Source: an uncultured Lachnospiraceae bacterium (GTDB lineage: Bacteria; Bacillota; Clostridia; Lachnospirales; Lachnospiraceae). From it: DNA of 64,000 nucleotides. The stretch spans positions 1 through 64,000 of the forward strand of contig CATOJY010000007.1 of NCBI GenBank assembly GCA_951800685.1, written 5' to 3'. Numbering within the stretch: the stretch's first letter is position 1; every line of letters begins with the position of its first letter. A program made the translations under genes and the position numbers. Below are positions 2,882 to 49,433 of the stretch, piece after piece. Below the pieces are notes generated by a model, which made no database searches, was not told the DNA's origin, and saw only the letters and a program-made list of their open reading frames with translations.

Positions 2882-4381
2882 ATGGGTTTTAAAAAGATTG
2901 CGATTGAAATATGTACGGTAGGTATATTGGCGACAGGGGTATCTGTGGCAGCTGTGCTTTATCTGGCAGATGGAAATGACCGGGAAGTATACGTGGAGCA
3001 GTCAGAGCAGTCAGAGGAGGAAGGAGAGGAAACTGAGGAATCTATAGAAAAGAAGAACGGTTCGGAGCAGGAAGGAGAGAAGCCTGGGGAGGAGATAACA
3101 GAACAGTTTAGCCAGGAAGAATTGGAAGAGAGAATAGAAACGGCATGTGGAGGAGAGGTGGAAAAATCCTCTTATGAAGATTTTGACGGTGATGGGGTCA
3201 AAGAACTGTTTGCATTAGTTATGGAGGAACAAAGAGATGGAGAATTGTTTAAGGCAGAACTTTGGTTTACGAATGGGCAAATAACATCTAAACTGAATAC
3301 ATGGCAGGATATTTACAGAGATGTCACGGTAAATGATGTAAATGCAGAAAATAAGAAGTTCTATTATTTGAATATGGTAAATGGGGAAGGAATAGATACT
3401 TCAATTTGTGCAGTTTATGGTTATGAAGATGGAGAATGCTTTGAGGCTTATGAAGGATACGGGGAATGGGGGAACAAAGATGAGGAAACTTATTATACGG
3501 ATATACAGTTTTGGCCTACAGATTGCGCAAGTTATTGTGTAGACCATAAAGTATTTTATGAAGACAGGAAATATCATTATTATGCGTCAGTCCCTATTTC
3601 CCATGCTATTTTTGAGGAATACAGCAACAGTCGGCAGGAATATGAGAAAGCGTTAAAAGAGATCGGAAAACTTAAAAATGAAAATACAGATTACAGCAAA
3701 TTACCATATATAGTGGAAACGGAAGTGCTTTATAATTCGGATAATAAGATATTGATTAACTTTCAAGCGTGGAAAAATCAGGAATTATATGATTCTTCTG
3801 GTTATTTTGGAGAAATGGGTGAGTTAAACGGTGAATTAGTATATGCTGAGTTTGCTATTGTAGGATCCGATCTGGTTTTTCATAAAGTGCAGGAAGGAAA
3901 CTGGAAAAGTGAAATGCTAGGTTTGGAGCCTTATTATTCGCCAGAATCCTTAAAGGTGCTGGAGAGAATGGAAAATGAGCCTCCGCAACTATCGGGGGAA
4001 CAGTTTGAACAGATTATTCAGGAGATTAAAACCAATTATTATGCTTATCAGGATTTACTGGCTAATGGGAAAATAGAAGAGAAAACAGAAAATGGATATA
4101 AGGCTTATTATGATAATGGTTTGCTCCGGTGTATAGAAATTAATGGGGAAGAAAACGGAGTTACATACAATAGGCTGTATTATATTATGGATAATGAATT
4201 GTATTTTGCCTTTTTCTTTACAAATAATGAGCCGTCAATAGAAAACCGTCTTTATTTTTATCAAGGAAAGATGATTCGATGGATTGATAGCGATGGGACA
4301 GTGCATGATAAGGAGTATGAAACAGATGAGTTTAAAGAACTGGAGCAGTTTGCGGGAGAAGTGGATGAGTTTATAAAATAA
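2882..4381 (+). CDS. Membrane-anchored or secreted acidic hypothetical protein
   Basis: A 499-residue protein with an N-terminal hydrophobic segment (about residues 5-27, starting MGFKKIAIE) acting as signal or anchor. It is followed by a strongly acidic Glu-rich linker (about 35-75) and a large extracytoplasmic part. Near residue 100 there is a calcium-loop-like motif DFDGDGVKELFAL, common in secreted Firmicute proteins that read out as VCBS/FG-GAP-like. The C-terminal quarter has several YYDNG/YYIMD-type strands that recall MORN-like repeats, but not convincingly. The ATG has a GGGAG site. There is no lipobox or sortase signal. I cannot name a function; it is a single gene, 84 bases before an EcsC-family gene. 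Confidence 0.7.
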   Translation: MGFKKIAIEICTVGILATGVSVAAVLYLADGNDREVYVEQSEQSEEEGEETEESIEKKNGSEQEGEKPGEEITEQFSQEELEERIETACGGEVEKSSYEDFDGDGVKELFALVMEEQRDGELFKAELWFTNGQITSKLNTWQDIYRDVTVNDVNAENKKFYYLNMVNGEGIDTSICAVYGYEDGECFEAYEGYGEWGNKDEETYYTDIQFWPTDCASYCVDHKVFYEDRKYHYYASVPISHAIFEEYSNSRQEYEKALKEIGKLKNENTDYSKLPYIVETEVLYNSDNKILINFQAWKNQELYDSSGYFGEMGELNGELVYAEFAIVGSDLVFHKVQEGNWKSEMLGLEPYYSPESLKVLERMENEPPQLSGEQFEQIIQEIKTNYYAYQDLLANGKIEEKTENGYKAYYDNGLLRCIEINGEENGVTYNRLYYIMDNELYFAFFFTNNEPSIENRLYFYQGKMIRWIDSDGTVHDKEYETDEFKELEQFAGEVDEFIK

Positions 4382-46030: not shown

Positions 46031-46075
46031 ACCCCCATCGTTAGATTTTGGTCTAACTTTGGGGGTTCGTTTTTA
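46031..46075 (+). terminator. Strong terminator between fba and the AGCS symporter gene
   Basis: ACCCCCATCGTTAGA (46031-46045) pairs with TCTAACTTTGGGGGT (46052-46066) with a small internal mismatch, followed by TCGTTTTTA. The end of the convergent symporter gene reaches into the T-tract. Confidence 0.88.
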
Positions 46076-47566
46076 TTGAGCGTGTTCTTCATTGATCTCT
46101 GGAAAGACGGAGAGAATGGGCTTTACGTCCTGCTTGCGGATCACACGGTCAACATAGTTCCTGGTGATCTTCATGACAAGCGGTGACAGGCACAGGACAC
46201 CGATCAGGTTAGGCATGGCCATTAGACCGTTGAAAGTGTCGGAAAGATCCCAGGCAAGGCTCAGGTTCATAGTTGCACCAACAAAAATGATCATAACAAA
46301 TACGATTTTGTAAATAATGGTAGATTTCGTGCCAAATAAGTATTCCCATGCTTTAGAACCGTAATGGCTCCATCCAAGAACTGTGGAAAAGGCAAACAGC
46401 AGGATGGAAAGTGCGATAAACATAGGGCCGAAAGAACCAAATACAGTAGCAAATGCTTCTCCAACCAGAGCGGAACCGGAGGCAGTGCTAAGTACAGCGC
46501 CCGTTTCTAAGTCGATCAGGCCAGAAGAAAGTACGGAAAAGGCTGTCAACGTGCAGACAACCATGGTGTCGGCAAACACTTCAAAGATTCCCCACATACC
46601 CTGGCGAACAGGTTCTTTTACGTTAGAATTGGAGTGAACCATAACAGAGGAACCGAGACCAGCCTCATTGGAAAATACGCCCCGTTTCATACCCCAGGTC
46701 AATGCAAGCTTGACACCGGAACCTACGATGCCGCCTCCGACGGCCTTCAGGCCGAATGCGCCCTTAAAAATTGCGCCAAAAATCGCTTCAAACTGTCCGA
46801 TGTTCATAAAGAAAATAACAAGTGCGCCAAGTATGTATGCAATGGCCATAAAAGGAACCAGTTTTTCTGTGACAGACGCAATTCTCTTGAGACCGCCTAC
46901 GATTACCAATGCTGCGAGAATCATGAGGGCAATCCCTGTAGCCGTAGTGGGGACGGAAAAAGCAGCTTCCATATTAGCGGCAATGGAATTTACCTGGCTC
47001 ATATTGCCGATTCCGAAAGAAGCCAATAGACAGAATACAGAAAACAGCACCGCCAGCGCTGCGCCGATCTGCTTACAACCTTTGTAGGAGCCAAGTCCGT
47101 CTTTCAGGTAATACATAGCGCCGCCGCACCATTCGCCCCTGGAATTTTTACGACGATAATAGATGCCAAGTACATTTTCAGAATAGTTGGTCATCATACC
47201 GAAGAAAGCTACAATCCACATCCAGAAGATTGCGCCAGGGCCGCCGGCAATCAGAGCACTGGCAACACCAACAATATTACCTGTGCCGATTGTGGCAGCC
47301 AGAGCGGTACACAGAGACTGGAATTGGGAAATGGATTTGTCTTCCTTATCCGTATGCTTTGTGATGTGCCGATCACTGAAAATACCACCAATGGTATTCT
47401 TAAACCAGTGTCCAATGTGGGATAACTGGAAAAATCTGGTTAATATTGTCATTAGGATACCTGTTCCCACGAGCAGGATCAGCATGGGAATGCCCCATAC
47501 GAAATTGTTGACGGCACTGTTAATGCTTGTAACAGAATCCACGAGGCCTGCAAAAAATTCTTTCAA
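46073..47566 (-). CDS. Sodium:alanine/glycine symporter (AGCS family)
   Basis: A 497-residue transporter with about ten or eleven helices that imports alanine or glycine with Na+. Family signatures: NFVWGIPMLILLVGTG at the N-terminus, TGNIVGVASALIAGGPGAIF, GVFSNEAGLGSSVMVH and GWSHYGSKAWEYLFG. The best start is TTG at 47566, six bases after AAGGAGGAG; upstream ATGs in frame (for example 47608) lie before that site. A promoter is visible at 47655-47683. Confidence 0.92.
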   Translation of the reverse strand: MKEFFAGLVDSVTSINSAVNNFVWGIPMLILLVGTGILMTILTRFFQLSHIGHWFKNTIGGIFSDRHITKHTDKEDKSISQFQSLCTALAATIGTGNIVGVASALIAGGPGAIFWMWIVAFFGMMTNYSENVLGIYYRRKNSRGEWCGGAMYYLKDGLGSYKGCKQIGAALAVLFSVFCLLASFGIGNMSQVNSIAANMEAAFSVPTTATGIALMILAALVIVGGLKRIASVTEKLVPFMAIAYILGALVIFFMNIGQFEAIFGAIFKGAFGLKAVGGGIVGSGVKLALTWGMKRGVFSNEAGLGSSVMVHSNSNVKEPVRQGMWGIFEVFADTMVVCTLTAFSVLSSGLIDLETGAVLSTASGSALVGEAFATVFGSFGPMFIALSILLFAFSTVLGWSHYGSKAWEYLFGTKSTIIYKIVFVMIIFVGATMNLSLAWDLSDTFNGLMAMPNLIGVLCLSPLVMKITRNYVDRVIRKQDVKPILSVFPEINEEHAQ

Positions 47567-47654
47567 AATATTCTCCTCCTTCTCTGCTTCCGTAAAAGGC
47601 GTAGACATGATAGACATGCTTATGCTGATTTTTCGGAAAGATTTCACTTTTCCA

Positions 47655-47683
47655 GTATACCATAGCAAAGTGTGAGTGGCAAG
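47655..47683 (-). promoter_or_regulatory. Promoter of the AGCS symporter gene
   Basis: On the minus strand: TTGCCA (47683-47678), 17-bp spacer, extended -10 TGGTATACT (hexamer 47660-47655). Confidence 0.7.
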
Positions 47684-47718
47684 GGAAATTGTATACACGG
47701 ATATCTGGATGCAACAGC

Positions 47719-47795
47719 GTTCATGAATTGTTCATATTTAATTTAAAAAAATTTCATGCTGATAACATCCTTTAGACATTTCTCCTGCGTATACT
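47719..47795 (+). promoter_or_regulatory. Direct-repeat operator and -10 of non-coding unit 1
   Basis: GTTCAT at 47719 and 47730 (11-bp period) and TTTCAT at 47752 lie about three helical turns before TATACT (47790-47795). Phased direct repeats with a weak -35 suggest activation by an OmpR/PhoB-type response regulator. The same layout recurs 231 bases downstream. Confidence 0.5.
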
Positions 47796-47801
47796 TAAAC
47801 C

Positions 47802-47918
47802 ATAAGATAACAACACAGCAAAACAAAATGACAACATCAAGTTTACTGATTAACTAAAACTTTTTCATAATAATGCCAAGTAGAGTTGCTCTACTTGGCA
47901 TCCTCCCTTTTCTGGGGG
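47802..47918 (+). ncRNA. Candidate small regulatory RNA, unit 1
   Basis: Predicted transcript from about 47802. It contains two blocks shared with unit 2 (47796-47817 and 47835-47873), then an 11-bp perfect hairpin: GCCAAGTAGAG (47875-47885), loop TTG, CTCTACTTGGC (47889-47899). Directly after it comes ATCCTCCCTTTTCTGGGG, whose TCCTCCC is complementary to Shine-Dalgarno sequences. No open frame of note. The T-tract is only four bases, so the 3' end is uncertain. Confidence 0.5.
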
Positions 47919-47949
47919 AAATTAGATAACAATCCGGCCAATATTGTCT

Positions 47950-48026
47950 GTTCACGAATTGTTCAAAAATGCTTTAAAAAAATTTCACGCAGGTAACATT
48001 CTTTGGACATTTCTCCTGCGTATACT
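47950..48026 (+). promoter_or_regulatory. Direct-repeat operator and -10 of non-coding unit 2
   Basis: GTTCAC (47950), GTTCAA (47961) and TTTCAC (47983), then TTGGAC (48003-48008) and TATACT (48021-48026). Spacing matches unit 1 to within a base; the region around TATACT is identical in both. Confidence 0.5.
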
Positions 48027-48032
48027 TAAACC

Positions 48033-48158
48033 ATAAGATAACAACACGGCAATACAAGATAGAATAAAACGACCACATCAAGTTTGCTGATTAACTAAAA
48101 CTTTTTCATAATAAGCCAGGCAGAGATTACTCTGTCTGGCATCCTCCCTTTTCTGGGG
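48033..48158 (+). ncRNA. Candidate small regulatory RNA, unit 2
   Basis: Second copy of the unit. Its hairpin is GCCAGGCAGAG (48115-48125), loop ATTA, CTCTGTCTGGC (48130-48140). Compared with unit 1, one A-U pair became G-C, one U-A became C-G and one G-C became G-U, so pairing is kept while sequence changes. The same ATCCTCCCTTTTCTGGGG follows. It ends about 120 bases before the carboxypeptidase start, so a leader role for that gene is the main alternative. Confidence 0.5.
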
Positions 48159-48278
48159 TCGATTTTCATTTCTGTGTTGAAGGTAATATTTGAATATATA
48201 CTTAGAATTTTGTGCAGAGAAAGTTATGTTTATAGGAGCTTTTTCACGGACAAGTTTTTGATTTTATATGAGGCAGTC

Positions 48279-49433
48279 ATGGAACCATACTTTGAAGAAC
48301 AAGATACAGTTGAGGAGAAAGAATATTTTGCCCGCTGCGAGAGAAGGAGACGTATGCGGCTTGAAAGACAGAGACGCCAGAGAAGAAGGCGTATGGTGAA
48401 GCGGTTTCTTGGTCTTGGCGCGCTTGCTGCTGCATTGATTACGGTTGTTGTAATTAGGATAGCCAGCAGGAGACCATCAACAGAAGACATCTTACCGCAG
48501 ATCCAGGAAGTGCAGGCGCCTGAGGAGACTGTTGGATCAGAAATGGCAGATATAACAGTAGAAGAGAGCGTGGAAGATGAGAAAAATCTATCCGAAACGG
48601 AAAAAGAGTCATATTACTTCACGACAGCATCGGATCTCATGGATATTTACAGTGAGGACGTAATTAGTACGCATGCGATCCTGGTCAATGAGAGTACAGA
48701 TACGGTTGTCGCTTCGAAGGGAGCGAAGGAGAAGATCTATCCAGCGTCCATGACAAAAGTGTTGACGGTGTTGGTAGCGGCAGAAGAACTCACGGAGGAG
48801 GATCTGGATGACACTTTTACTATGACGTTAGAAATCACGGATTATGCTTATGTGAATGACTGCAGTTCTGTGGGATTTTTAGATGGAGAAAAGGTAACGG
48901 TGCGAGATCTTTTCTACGGAACTGTATTGCCTTCCGGAGGTGACGCCGCATTGGGTCTTGCGACCTATATAGCGGGTTCGCAGGAAGCGTTTGTGGAGAA
49001 GATGAATGCGAAGTTAGAAGAACTGGGGCTGGGAGACAGTGCACATTTTACTAATTGTATAGGTCTTTTTGATGAAAATCATTATTGTACTGTTTATGAT
49101 ATGGCTGTAATCATGAAAGCGGCCATACAGAATGAGCTGTGCAGGGAAGTATTATCTGCACATACTTATACGACAAAGGCTACTGCCGAACATCCGGAGG
49201 GAATTACCATTTCCAACTGGTTCCTGCGTAAAATTGAGGATAAGGATACGGGTGGCGAAGTGCTGTGCGCTAAGACGGGATATGTAGCCCAATCCAAAAA
49301 CTGTGCGGTAAGTTATGGCACCTCTGTGAATGGAACCCCTTATATCTGTGTGACTGCAGGATCGACCAGCGGTTGGAGGTGTATTTACGATCATGTGGAA
49401 ATCTATAACAGATATGTGCCGGCAGAAGGATGA
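48279..49433 (+). CDS. D-alanyl-D-alanine carboxypeptidase (peptidase S11), membrane-anchored
   Basis: Trims the terminal D-Ala of peptidoglycan side chains. The 384-residue protein has an Arg-rich cytoplasmic N-terminus (residues 20-40), a transmembrane anchor at about 42-60, an acidic linker and an S11 domain. Catalytic motifs: Ser157-x-x-Lys160 in PASMTKVL and Lys332-Thr-Gly in AKTG. The second motif, SxN in most members, reads Ser219-Gly-Gly221 (LPSGGDAA). Most S11 enzymes are anchored at the C-terminus; this one is anchored at the N-terminus. The ATG at 48279 follows GAGG; the longer frame from 48174 has no site. Confidence 0.88.
   Translation: MEPYFEEQDTVEEKEYFARCERRRRMRLERQRRQRRRRMVKRFLGLGALAAALITVVVIRIASRRPSTEDILPQIQEVQAPEETVGSEMADITVEESVEDEKNLSETEKESYYFTTASDLMDIYSEDVISTHAILVNESTDTVVASKGAKEKIYPASMTKVLTVLVAAEELTEEDLDDTFTMTLEITDYAYVNDCSSVGFLDGEKVTVRDLFYGTVLPSGGDAALGLATYIAGSQEAFVEKMNAKLEELGLGDSAHFTNCIGLFDENHYCTVYDMAVIMKAAIQNELCREVLSAHTYTTKATAEHPEGITISNWFLRKIEDKDTGGEVLCAKTGYVAQSKNCAVSYGTSVNGTPYICVTAGSTSGWRCIYDHVEIYNRYVPAEG

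Follow-up and report, generated by a model that had tools for sequence, protein, structure and literature searches.

The csRNAs of streptococci carry an unpaired anti-Shine-Dalgarno (anti-SD) sequence and an unpaired sequence antisense to the start codon (anti-AUG), act at translation starts, and have CiaR boxes of the form TTTAAG-N5-TTTAAG (PMC3091779, PMC4507080, PMC4211561). Their repression of comC and other targets has been published (PMC4507080), and CiaRH is described as reported in streptococci only (PMC3091779). Lachnospiraceae are one of the main groups of gut bacteria, and among the open-access matches listed none described a family of base-pairing sRNAs driven by a regulator in this group.

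The locus analysed here lies in a 64,000-nucleotide stretch of DNA from an uncultured Lachnospiraceae bacterium; the whole stretch is called the window. It contains two tandem copies of one predicted RNA gene, unit 1 (47719-47918) and unit 2 (47950-48159). Judging by the sequences, the units probably encode regulator-activated sibling sRNAs that repress translation of mRNAs starting with Met-Lys-Lys (MKK) codons, rather than a leader of the gene downstream. What is observed is conservation, covariation of the hairpin, phasing of the promoter repeats, a further RNA type with the same layout and complementarity to translation starts; we infer that the units are transcribed under a response regulator and that the RNAs pair with, and repress, the proposed targets.

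Two predicted tandem RNA genes

A preliminary description of this DNA reported two units 231 bp apart sharing phased repeats, a TATACT block, conserved blocks and a hairpin followed by TCCTCCC. All of this can be read directly in the sequence. The observation was confirmed and reaches further than first seen, to six exact 11-bp repeats, the identity of CUUUUUCAUAAU as an anti-start-codon sequence, a second RNA type and a csRNA-like core. The 231-bp offset (47720 vs 47951) separates copies that are 84% identical. The blocks around TATACT and TTAACTAAAACTTTTTCATAATAA are the same in both, and in both TCCTCCC directly follows the 11-bp hairpin. No ORF of at least 50 aa in the window's ORF list overlaps the units. 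RNAs of this kind are called type A. The features are:

47720..47779, + strand: unit 1 promoter repeats, six at exactly 11-bp spacing (47720, 47731, 47742, 47753, 47764, 47775); sequence, 11-bp periodicity of family loci
47790..47795, + strand: unit 1 -10 box TATACT; sequence, alignment conservation; transcript start predicted at about 47802
47802..47918, + strand: unit 1 type-A sRNA, predicted, as are both its ends
47860..47872, + strand: unit 1 anti-start-codon segment CUUUUUCAUAAUA, unpaired, antisense to UAUUAUGAAAAAG; CTTTTTCATAAT conservation, 19/21 match to the csRNA consensus
47873..47901, + strand: unit 1 covarying hairpin; fold, covariation
47900..47907, + strand: unit 1 anti-SD AUCCUCCC; CATCCTCCC conservation
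47951..48010, + strand: unit 2 promoter repeats, six at 11-bp spacing (47951, 47962, 47973, 47984, 47995, 48006); sequence, periodicity of family loci
48021..48026, + strand: unit 2 -10 box TATACT; sequence; transcript start predicted at about 48033
48033..48159, + strand: unit 2 type-A sRNA, predicted, as are both its ends
48101..48113, + strand: unit 2 anti-start-codon segment CUUUUUCAUAAUA; conservation, match to the csRNA consensus
48115..48140, + strand: unit 2 covarying hairpin; fold, covariation
48141..48148, + strand: unit 2 anti-SD AUCCUCCC; seed conservation

Hairpin structure and the 3' end

The stem arms are GCCAAGTAGAG/CTCTACTTGGC in unit 1 and GCCAGGCAGAG/CTCTGTCTGGC in unit 2. 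Pairing is kept in all three differences between them (A-U to G-C, G-C to G-U, U-A to C-G), as had been described. Two sequences are thin evidence for the selection on RNA structure that was claimed on this basis, yet an alignment of 60 sequences backs the covariation. In this alignment the type-A helix consists of 10 pairs, 7 of which change on both sides with pairing kept while 3 are invariant, and 97.6% of its cells are paired. Double-change cells number 89 against 31 +/- 6 in shuffles, and none of 500 shuffles reaches 89. Related sequences can beat shuffles in such a test; sliding the stem arms, a control which keeps the relatedness, lowers pairing to 23-45%. Each unit is also more stably folded than its shuffles (0/200 as good for either; z -4.67 for unit 1 and -4.33 for unit 2).

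The 60 rows were excised with a pattern demanding CTT..CATA and GCATCCTCCC, so row invariance at these positions is partly by choice. A partial copy at L046, and L048, a near-copy of L047, were left out of the 62 units. Among all 62 BLAST-chosen type-A units, CTTTTTCATAAT is present in 58 and CATCCTCCC in 61; in these unselected counts L013 lacks both seeds and L038 lacks the full CATAAT.

In single-sequence folds the anti-SD and anti-AUG stretches are unpaired in both units, with part of CCUCCC pairing weakly with the following GGGG. A second, weak CCC..GGG stem also appears in single-sequence folds and is absent from the consensus. CCC-N4-7-GGG occurs in 51/61 type-A units and a T tract in 47/61, while in unit 1 GGGGG is not followed by a T tract. 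The type-A terminator and 3' end are uncertain because stem and tract occur jointly in just 40/61.

Distribution of type A

Searching Lachnospiraceae genomes with a covariance model, a check suggested in the preliminary description, recovered a predicted RNA family: the 60-sequence model detected type A in 171/397 family genomes at E<=0.001, and in 135/319 of the good-quality ones. A search with unit 1 gave matches in 74/77 genus genomes at E<=0.1; 70 of these reach E<=2.3e-25, the other four being short and at chance level. With unit 2, 114/397 family genomes matched at E<=0.01, some over short stretches alone. All of 13 weaker family matches that were read keep an anti-AUG-like stretch, the hairpin and a C-rich stretch, with letters changed in some. 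Tandem type-A pairs are also present in G446, G457, G469 and G456 (with one G456 copy cut by a contig end). The window's own genome has two type-A copies and one copy of the second type.

Among 391 class genomes the model matched 11, ten of them inside Lachnospiraceae. The match outside the family, in G657, is a terminator-like repeat and a false positive. At this locus (L318, G657:C15:1596-1674 and 3437-3515) a terminator-like element occurs twice in near-identical form, with 1.8 kb between the copies; it has no relation to the RNA family. Matches in three viral contigs were likewise rejected, being the antisense of a phage gene start without the hairpin. Neither the window nor nine related loci gave an Rfam match at threshold. 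A human-microbiome screen lists 3161 intergenic candidates, which may include type A (PMC8040213).

Phased promoter repeats

In both units six TTCAT-like repeats in 11-bp phase reach the -35 region and are followed by TATACT. Direct repeats of 11 bp are typical of OmpR-family response regulators. TTCAT-like words also cluster at 11-bp spacing in 25 less-redundant type-A promoters. The period was then counted at loci that the RNA models had ranked, as their scores take no account of the promoter. Four of four TTCA-like units at period 11 were found at 21/27 type-A loci and at 25/29 usable loci of the second type, type B (L377 has no upstream sequence and is outside the 29). At ten control spacings (6-10 and 12-16) the count was 0, and once 1. 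The test is not fully independent, since 9/27 of the A genomes gave model rows found by whole-unit BLAST and the type-B model was built from loci found mostly via the repeats.

A tblastn search with five regulators as queries detected no response-regulator gene in 158 sequences, mostly with 1.5-kb flanks; the same queries gave 35 matches on seven control loci holding regulators. Control by Pho was considered and rejected, as the boxes of pstS promoters of related genomes differ from the TTCAT repeats. The latter are in none of six pstS upstream regions of these genomes, which have TTTACA-type boxes in L128, L130, L131 and L132 and TTAACA-type boxes in L133, with L129 unclear; in the window's own genome no pstS was found. 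One locus with a type-A-like RNA (L323, G037:C76) has upstream repeats TTTACA/TTACA, nearer to the pstS boxes. At the end of contig G000:C3 (L127) there is a pstA-like gene, with TTTTACA-type repeats before the following Na/Pi-cotransporter-like gene.

A search of 26 genus genomes for four repeats with one mismatch detected 87 sites, against 33 for the reversed control. On reading, 28 of the 87 are type-A promoters, 8 belong to type B, and the 51 others are mostly unexplained. Phased repeats were also seen beside other genes, those of L172-L174, L306 and L307 being named by eye. In L172-L174, TTCA-type repeats lie just upstream of a divergent GntR-like regulator gene, and in L172 and L173 an ABC-transporter lipoprotein gene with an MKKKLA start is on their other side. 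In L306 and L307, from two genomes, phased TTCA repeats and TATACT precede an operon led by a VTC-like (polyphosphate polymerase) gene. Close to other response-regulator loci (L179-L181, L182, L183) there are 11-bp repeats of a distinct form, TTCACA or TTCAACA.

A predicted second RNA, type B

The repeat search exposed the second RNA, to which eight recurring non-A sites lead. Its layout is AGAUAAAUUUUUUCAUAAUAGCC, hairpin, GGCACUCCUCAUUU. The copy in the window's genome lies outside the window:

G000:C5:95030-95096 (L164, L356): type B RNA, same kind of promoter

A type-B model of nine sequences found the RNA in 93/338 family genomes. In 32 aligned rows, 7/11 pairs of the helix change on both sides; the rows comprise 29/30 model loci (L361 was excluded by the excision pattern) and 3 of the 9 earlier loci. 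At model-ranked loci the seeds are kept in 27/27 cases for type A and in 29 and 30 of 30 for type B. The two types tend to occur together: of 336 of the 338 genomes that were assigned, 74 have both, 69 A only, 19 B only and 174 neither, an odds ratio of 9.8, which is far above chance when genomes are counted without kinship correction.

The csRNA-like core

The preliminary description likened the units to csRNAs in layout. The likeness extends past it: CUAAACUUUUUUCAUAAUAAU of unit 1 is identical to the csRNA consensus CUAAAACUUUUUCAUAAUAAU at 19/21 positions, and the core of unit 2 and that of type B each match at 18/21. The maximum was 16 for 300 shuffles and 15 for 299/300 random windows; the sole random window at 19 starts at 47804, inside unit 1. 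In a low-threshold Rfam scan of a 701-base region, the csRNA family RF02379 was the best plus-strand match and had the two highest bit scores, 23.8 and 23.0 on the two units, with the gathering score of 57 not reached. The corresponding E-values are 1.1 and 1.5 over 4227 families, or about 3e-4 for csRNA alone, the family having been named beforehand by the reader of the sequence. The RF02379 match alone proves little, given that rli40 reaches an E-value of 0.024 on the minus strand, lower than that of csRNA. Searches over the full length of eight other loci, where the search space was larger, yielded no csRNA match at E<=5.

It is unlikely that types A and B are true homologues of the streptococcal csRNAs, whether vertical or transferred. 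The 19/21 core identity and the best plus-strand rank of RF02379 are what homology would predict. However, 23.8 bits is well short of 57, an E-value of 1.1 over the whole library is exceeded in strength by rli40, the eight other loci gave no csRNA match, and among the 391 class genomes the sole match outside the family is false. The stems and the promoter box differ as well. We lean towards a convergent origin of the csRNA-like core, since it is short and AU-rich and is dictated by its target.

Complementarity to translation starts

The unpaired stretch before the hairpin (A: ACUUUUUCAUAAU; B: AAUUUUUUCAUAAUA) is complementary to AUGAAAAA starts, and 3' of the covarying hairpin there is an anti-SD sequence (AUCCUCCC in A, ACUCCUC in B). 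Read as antisense, the 5' stretch gives a start codon followed by K-K (A AUGAAAAAG, B AUGAAAAAA, with AUU before it) and the 3' stretch a Shine-Dalgarno sequence (A GGGAGGAU, B GAGGAGU). In both types the anti-AUG and anti-SD stand in the order needed for one mRNA, with the hairpin bulging between them.

GGAGGN{2,14}ATGAAAAA occurs 50 times in the window's genome (one place is listed twice) against 4 in the reversed control, an excess expected of real start sites. Of 27 genes read at such starts, 6 are lipoprotein- or exported-like and 7 membrane-like (by eye), only about half in all, so that the putative target class of this genome is mixed. The tighter pattern GGAGGATN{0,4}TTATGAAAAAG is found in 61/299 genomes, on assorted genes. 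By eye, 30 loci with it from across the family comprise 18 lipoprotein-like, 3 other exported-like, 4 membrane-like and 3 cytosolic products and 2 that are not genes. It is present in 30/124 genomes with type A and in 31/175 without (odds ratio 1.5, p 0.19). In an illustrative cofolding comparison, the gain of 29 preselected MKK starts averaged -9.4 kcal/mol and that of 46 further starts in the window -6.3; the difference is in part circular, since MKK and GGAGG were the criteria for picking the set, one gene is in both sets, and some ordinary starts reach -14. The top cofolds are an ACT-domain-like gene for A (-20.0 kcal/mol) and two lipoproteins for B (-21.1 and -18.4). Predicted target starts include those of an ACT-domain gene at G000:C23:39702, an SBP_bac_3 gene at G000:C5:69826 and a lipoprotein gene of L217.

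No single conserved target mRNA was found among the exact-pattern matches (61/299 genomes, assorted genes). A lipoprotein of the SBP_bac_3 family (Pfam) was tried for this role: its genus start regions have GGAGG in 30/30, TT before ATG in 28 and ATGAAAAA in 22. It was rejected, as the full TTATGAAAAAG is present in just 9/30. The neighbouring gene for an AGCS-like symporter has an MKK start in 0/35 start regions, with cofold gains of -4.4 to -17.8 kcal/mol; these were computed with the unit 1 RNA and not with each genome's own RNA. It was not counted as a conserved target, though in view of a few strong cofold values it may still be a target. Since the tight pattern lies on assorted genes and is not clearly tied to type A, many targets would be expected, each weakly conserved.

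This lack of one conserved target would also fit a regulatory RNA that works through a protein bound to its conserved U-rich stretch and hairpin instead of through mRNA starts, and conservation of an unpaired stretch would equally suit a protein site. Such a role is improbable: A (ACUUUUUCAU/CCUCCC) and B (AUUUUUUCAU/CUCCUC) place anti-AUG and anti-SD in one-mRNA order with different letters, as csRNAs do.

The alternative offered in the preliminary description, that the tandem units act in cis as a leader or attenuator for the D,D-carboxypeptidase gene that follows, is very improbable and was rejected because a position before one gene is not conserved: a same-strand ORF (48174-49433) does start shortly after unit 2 and carboxypeptidase-like genes are downstream in 6 clustered unit entries, but the AGCS-like gene is downstream on the same strand in 26 other loci, whereas here, as in L042 and L044, it is upstream and on the opposite strand, and other relatives have cyclophilin-, glutamine-synthetase- and aldolase-like neighbours (by eye) in differing orientations. 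In the window the AGCS-like symporter gene occupies 46073-47698 on the minus strand.

Proposed mechanism and significance

The main reading first given for the units (a repeat-controlled promoter, a short structured RNA, an exposed anti-SD, several copies) survived the tests made. On the trans-acting reading preferred here, the region would hold two tandem genes for sibling sRNAs, each about 115-130 nt long. An OmpR-family response regulator would bind the 11-bp-phased TTCAT-type repeats up to the -35 region and activate transcription from the -10 box TATACT. The predicted sRNA has an unpaired 5' part ending in ACUUUUUCAUAAU, then the hairpin, then AUCCUCCC. Both unpaired parts would bind the start region of a single mRNA, 5'-(G)GGAGGAU...AUUAUGAAAAAG-3': the anti-SD would base-pair with its Shine-Dalgarno sequence, CUUUUUCAUAAU would cover the start codon together with codons 2-4 (M-K-K), and the hairpin would keep the two half-sites side by side. 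The ribosome would thus be held off, and fewer MKK-start proteins, many of them probably lipoproteins, membrane or exported proteins, would be made when the two-component system is on. Type B would act in the same way with different seeds, from the same type of promoter elsewhere in the same genome.

A broader proposal is tentative. In a circuit that may be widespread in Lachnospiraceae, both sRNA types would be driven by a single response regulator and would cover the SD and start codon of the whole class of MKK-start mRNAs, lowering the synthesis of lipoproteins and other envelope proteins wholesale. Streptococci would have reached or inherited nearly the same 21-nt core under another regulator. 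The circuit would be a Gram-positive counterpart of the enterobacterial envelope-stress sRNAs, with a split seed bridged by a hairpin. If the trans-acting reading is right, the promoter box, the two seeds and the target rule give a defined start for studying post-transcriptional control in Lachnospiraceae, and one could then test for convergence of unrelated regulators of Bacilli and Clostridia on a single anti-MKK-start RNA core.

Comparison with known sRNAs

RoxS, a C-rich sRNA of Bacilli, follows a UCCC anti-SD logic, and Rfam searches gave no match of the units to it, RsaE or FsrA. The same logic as in type A is described for RsaE and FsrA, likewise C-rich sRNAs of Bacilli (PMC4132741). 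LhrC1-5 of Listeria (RF00616), which depend on LisRK, are likewise multicopy sRNAs in which UCCC pairs with the SD (PMC4132741). They differ from type A in that their UCCC sites are in two loops and a linker, with no anti-AUG core in that description (PMC4132741), and type A scores 18.4 bits against the RF00616 gathering score of 110.

The csRNAs (RF02379) are closer. Shared with types A and B are an 11-bp direct-repeat promoter, several sibling copies (two csRNAs are in tandem in S. pneumoniae), and an unpaired anti-SD and anti-AUG with a near-identical 21-nt core. Three things differ: the type A/B box is TTCAT-type whereas that of csRNAs is TTTAAG-N5-TTTAAG, at the same 11-bp spacing; the type-A anti-AUG and anti-SD flank one hairpin whereas those of csRNAs lie between two stem-loops; and type A scores below the Rfam gathering score. 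The Lachnospiraceae RNAs would therefore appear to work like csRNAs, yet they fail three defining features of that family.
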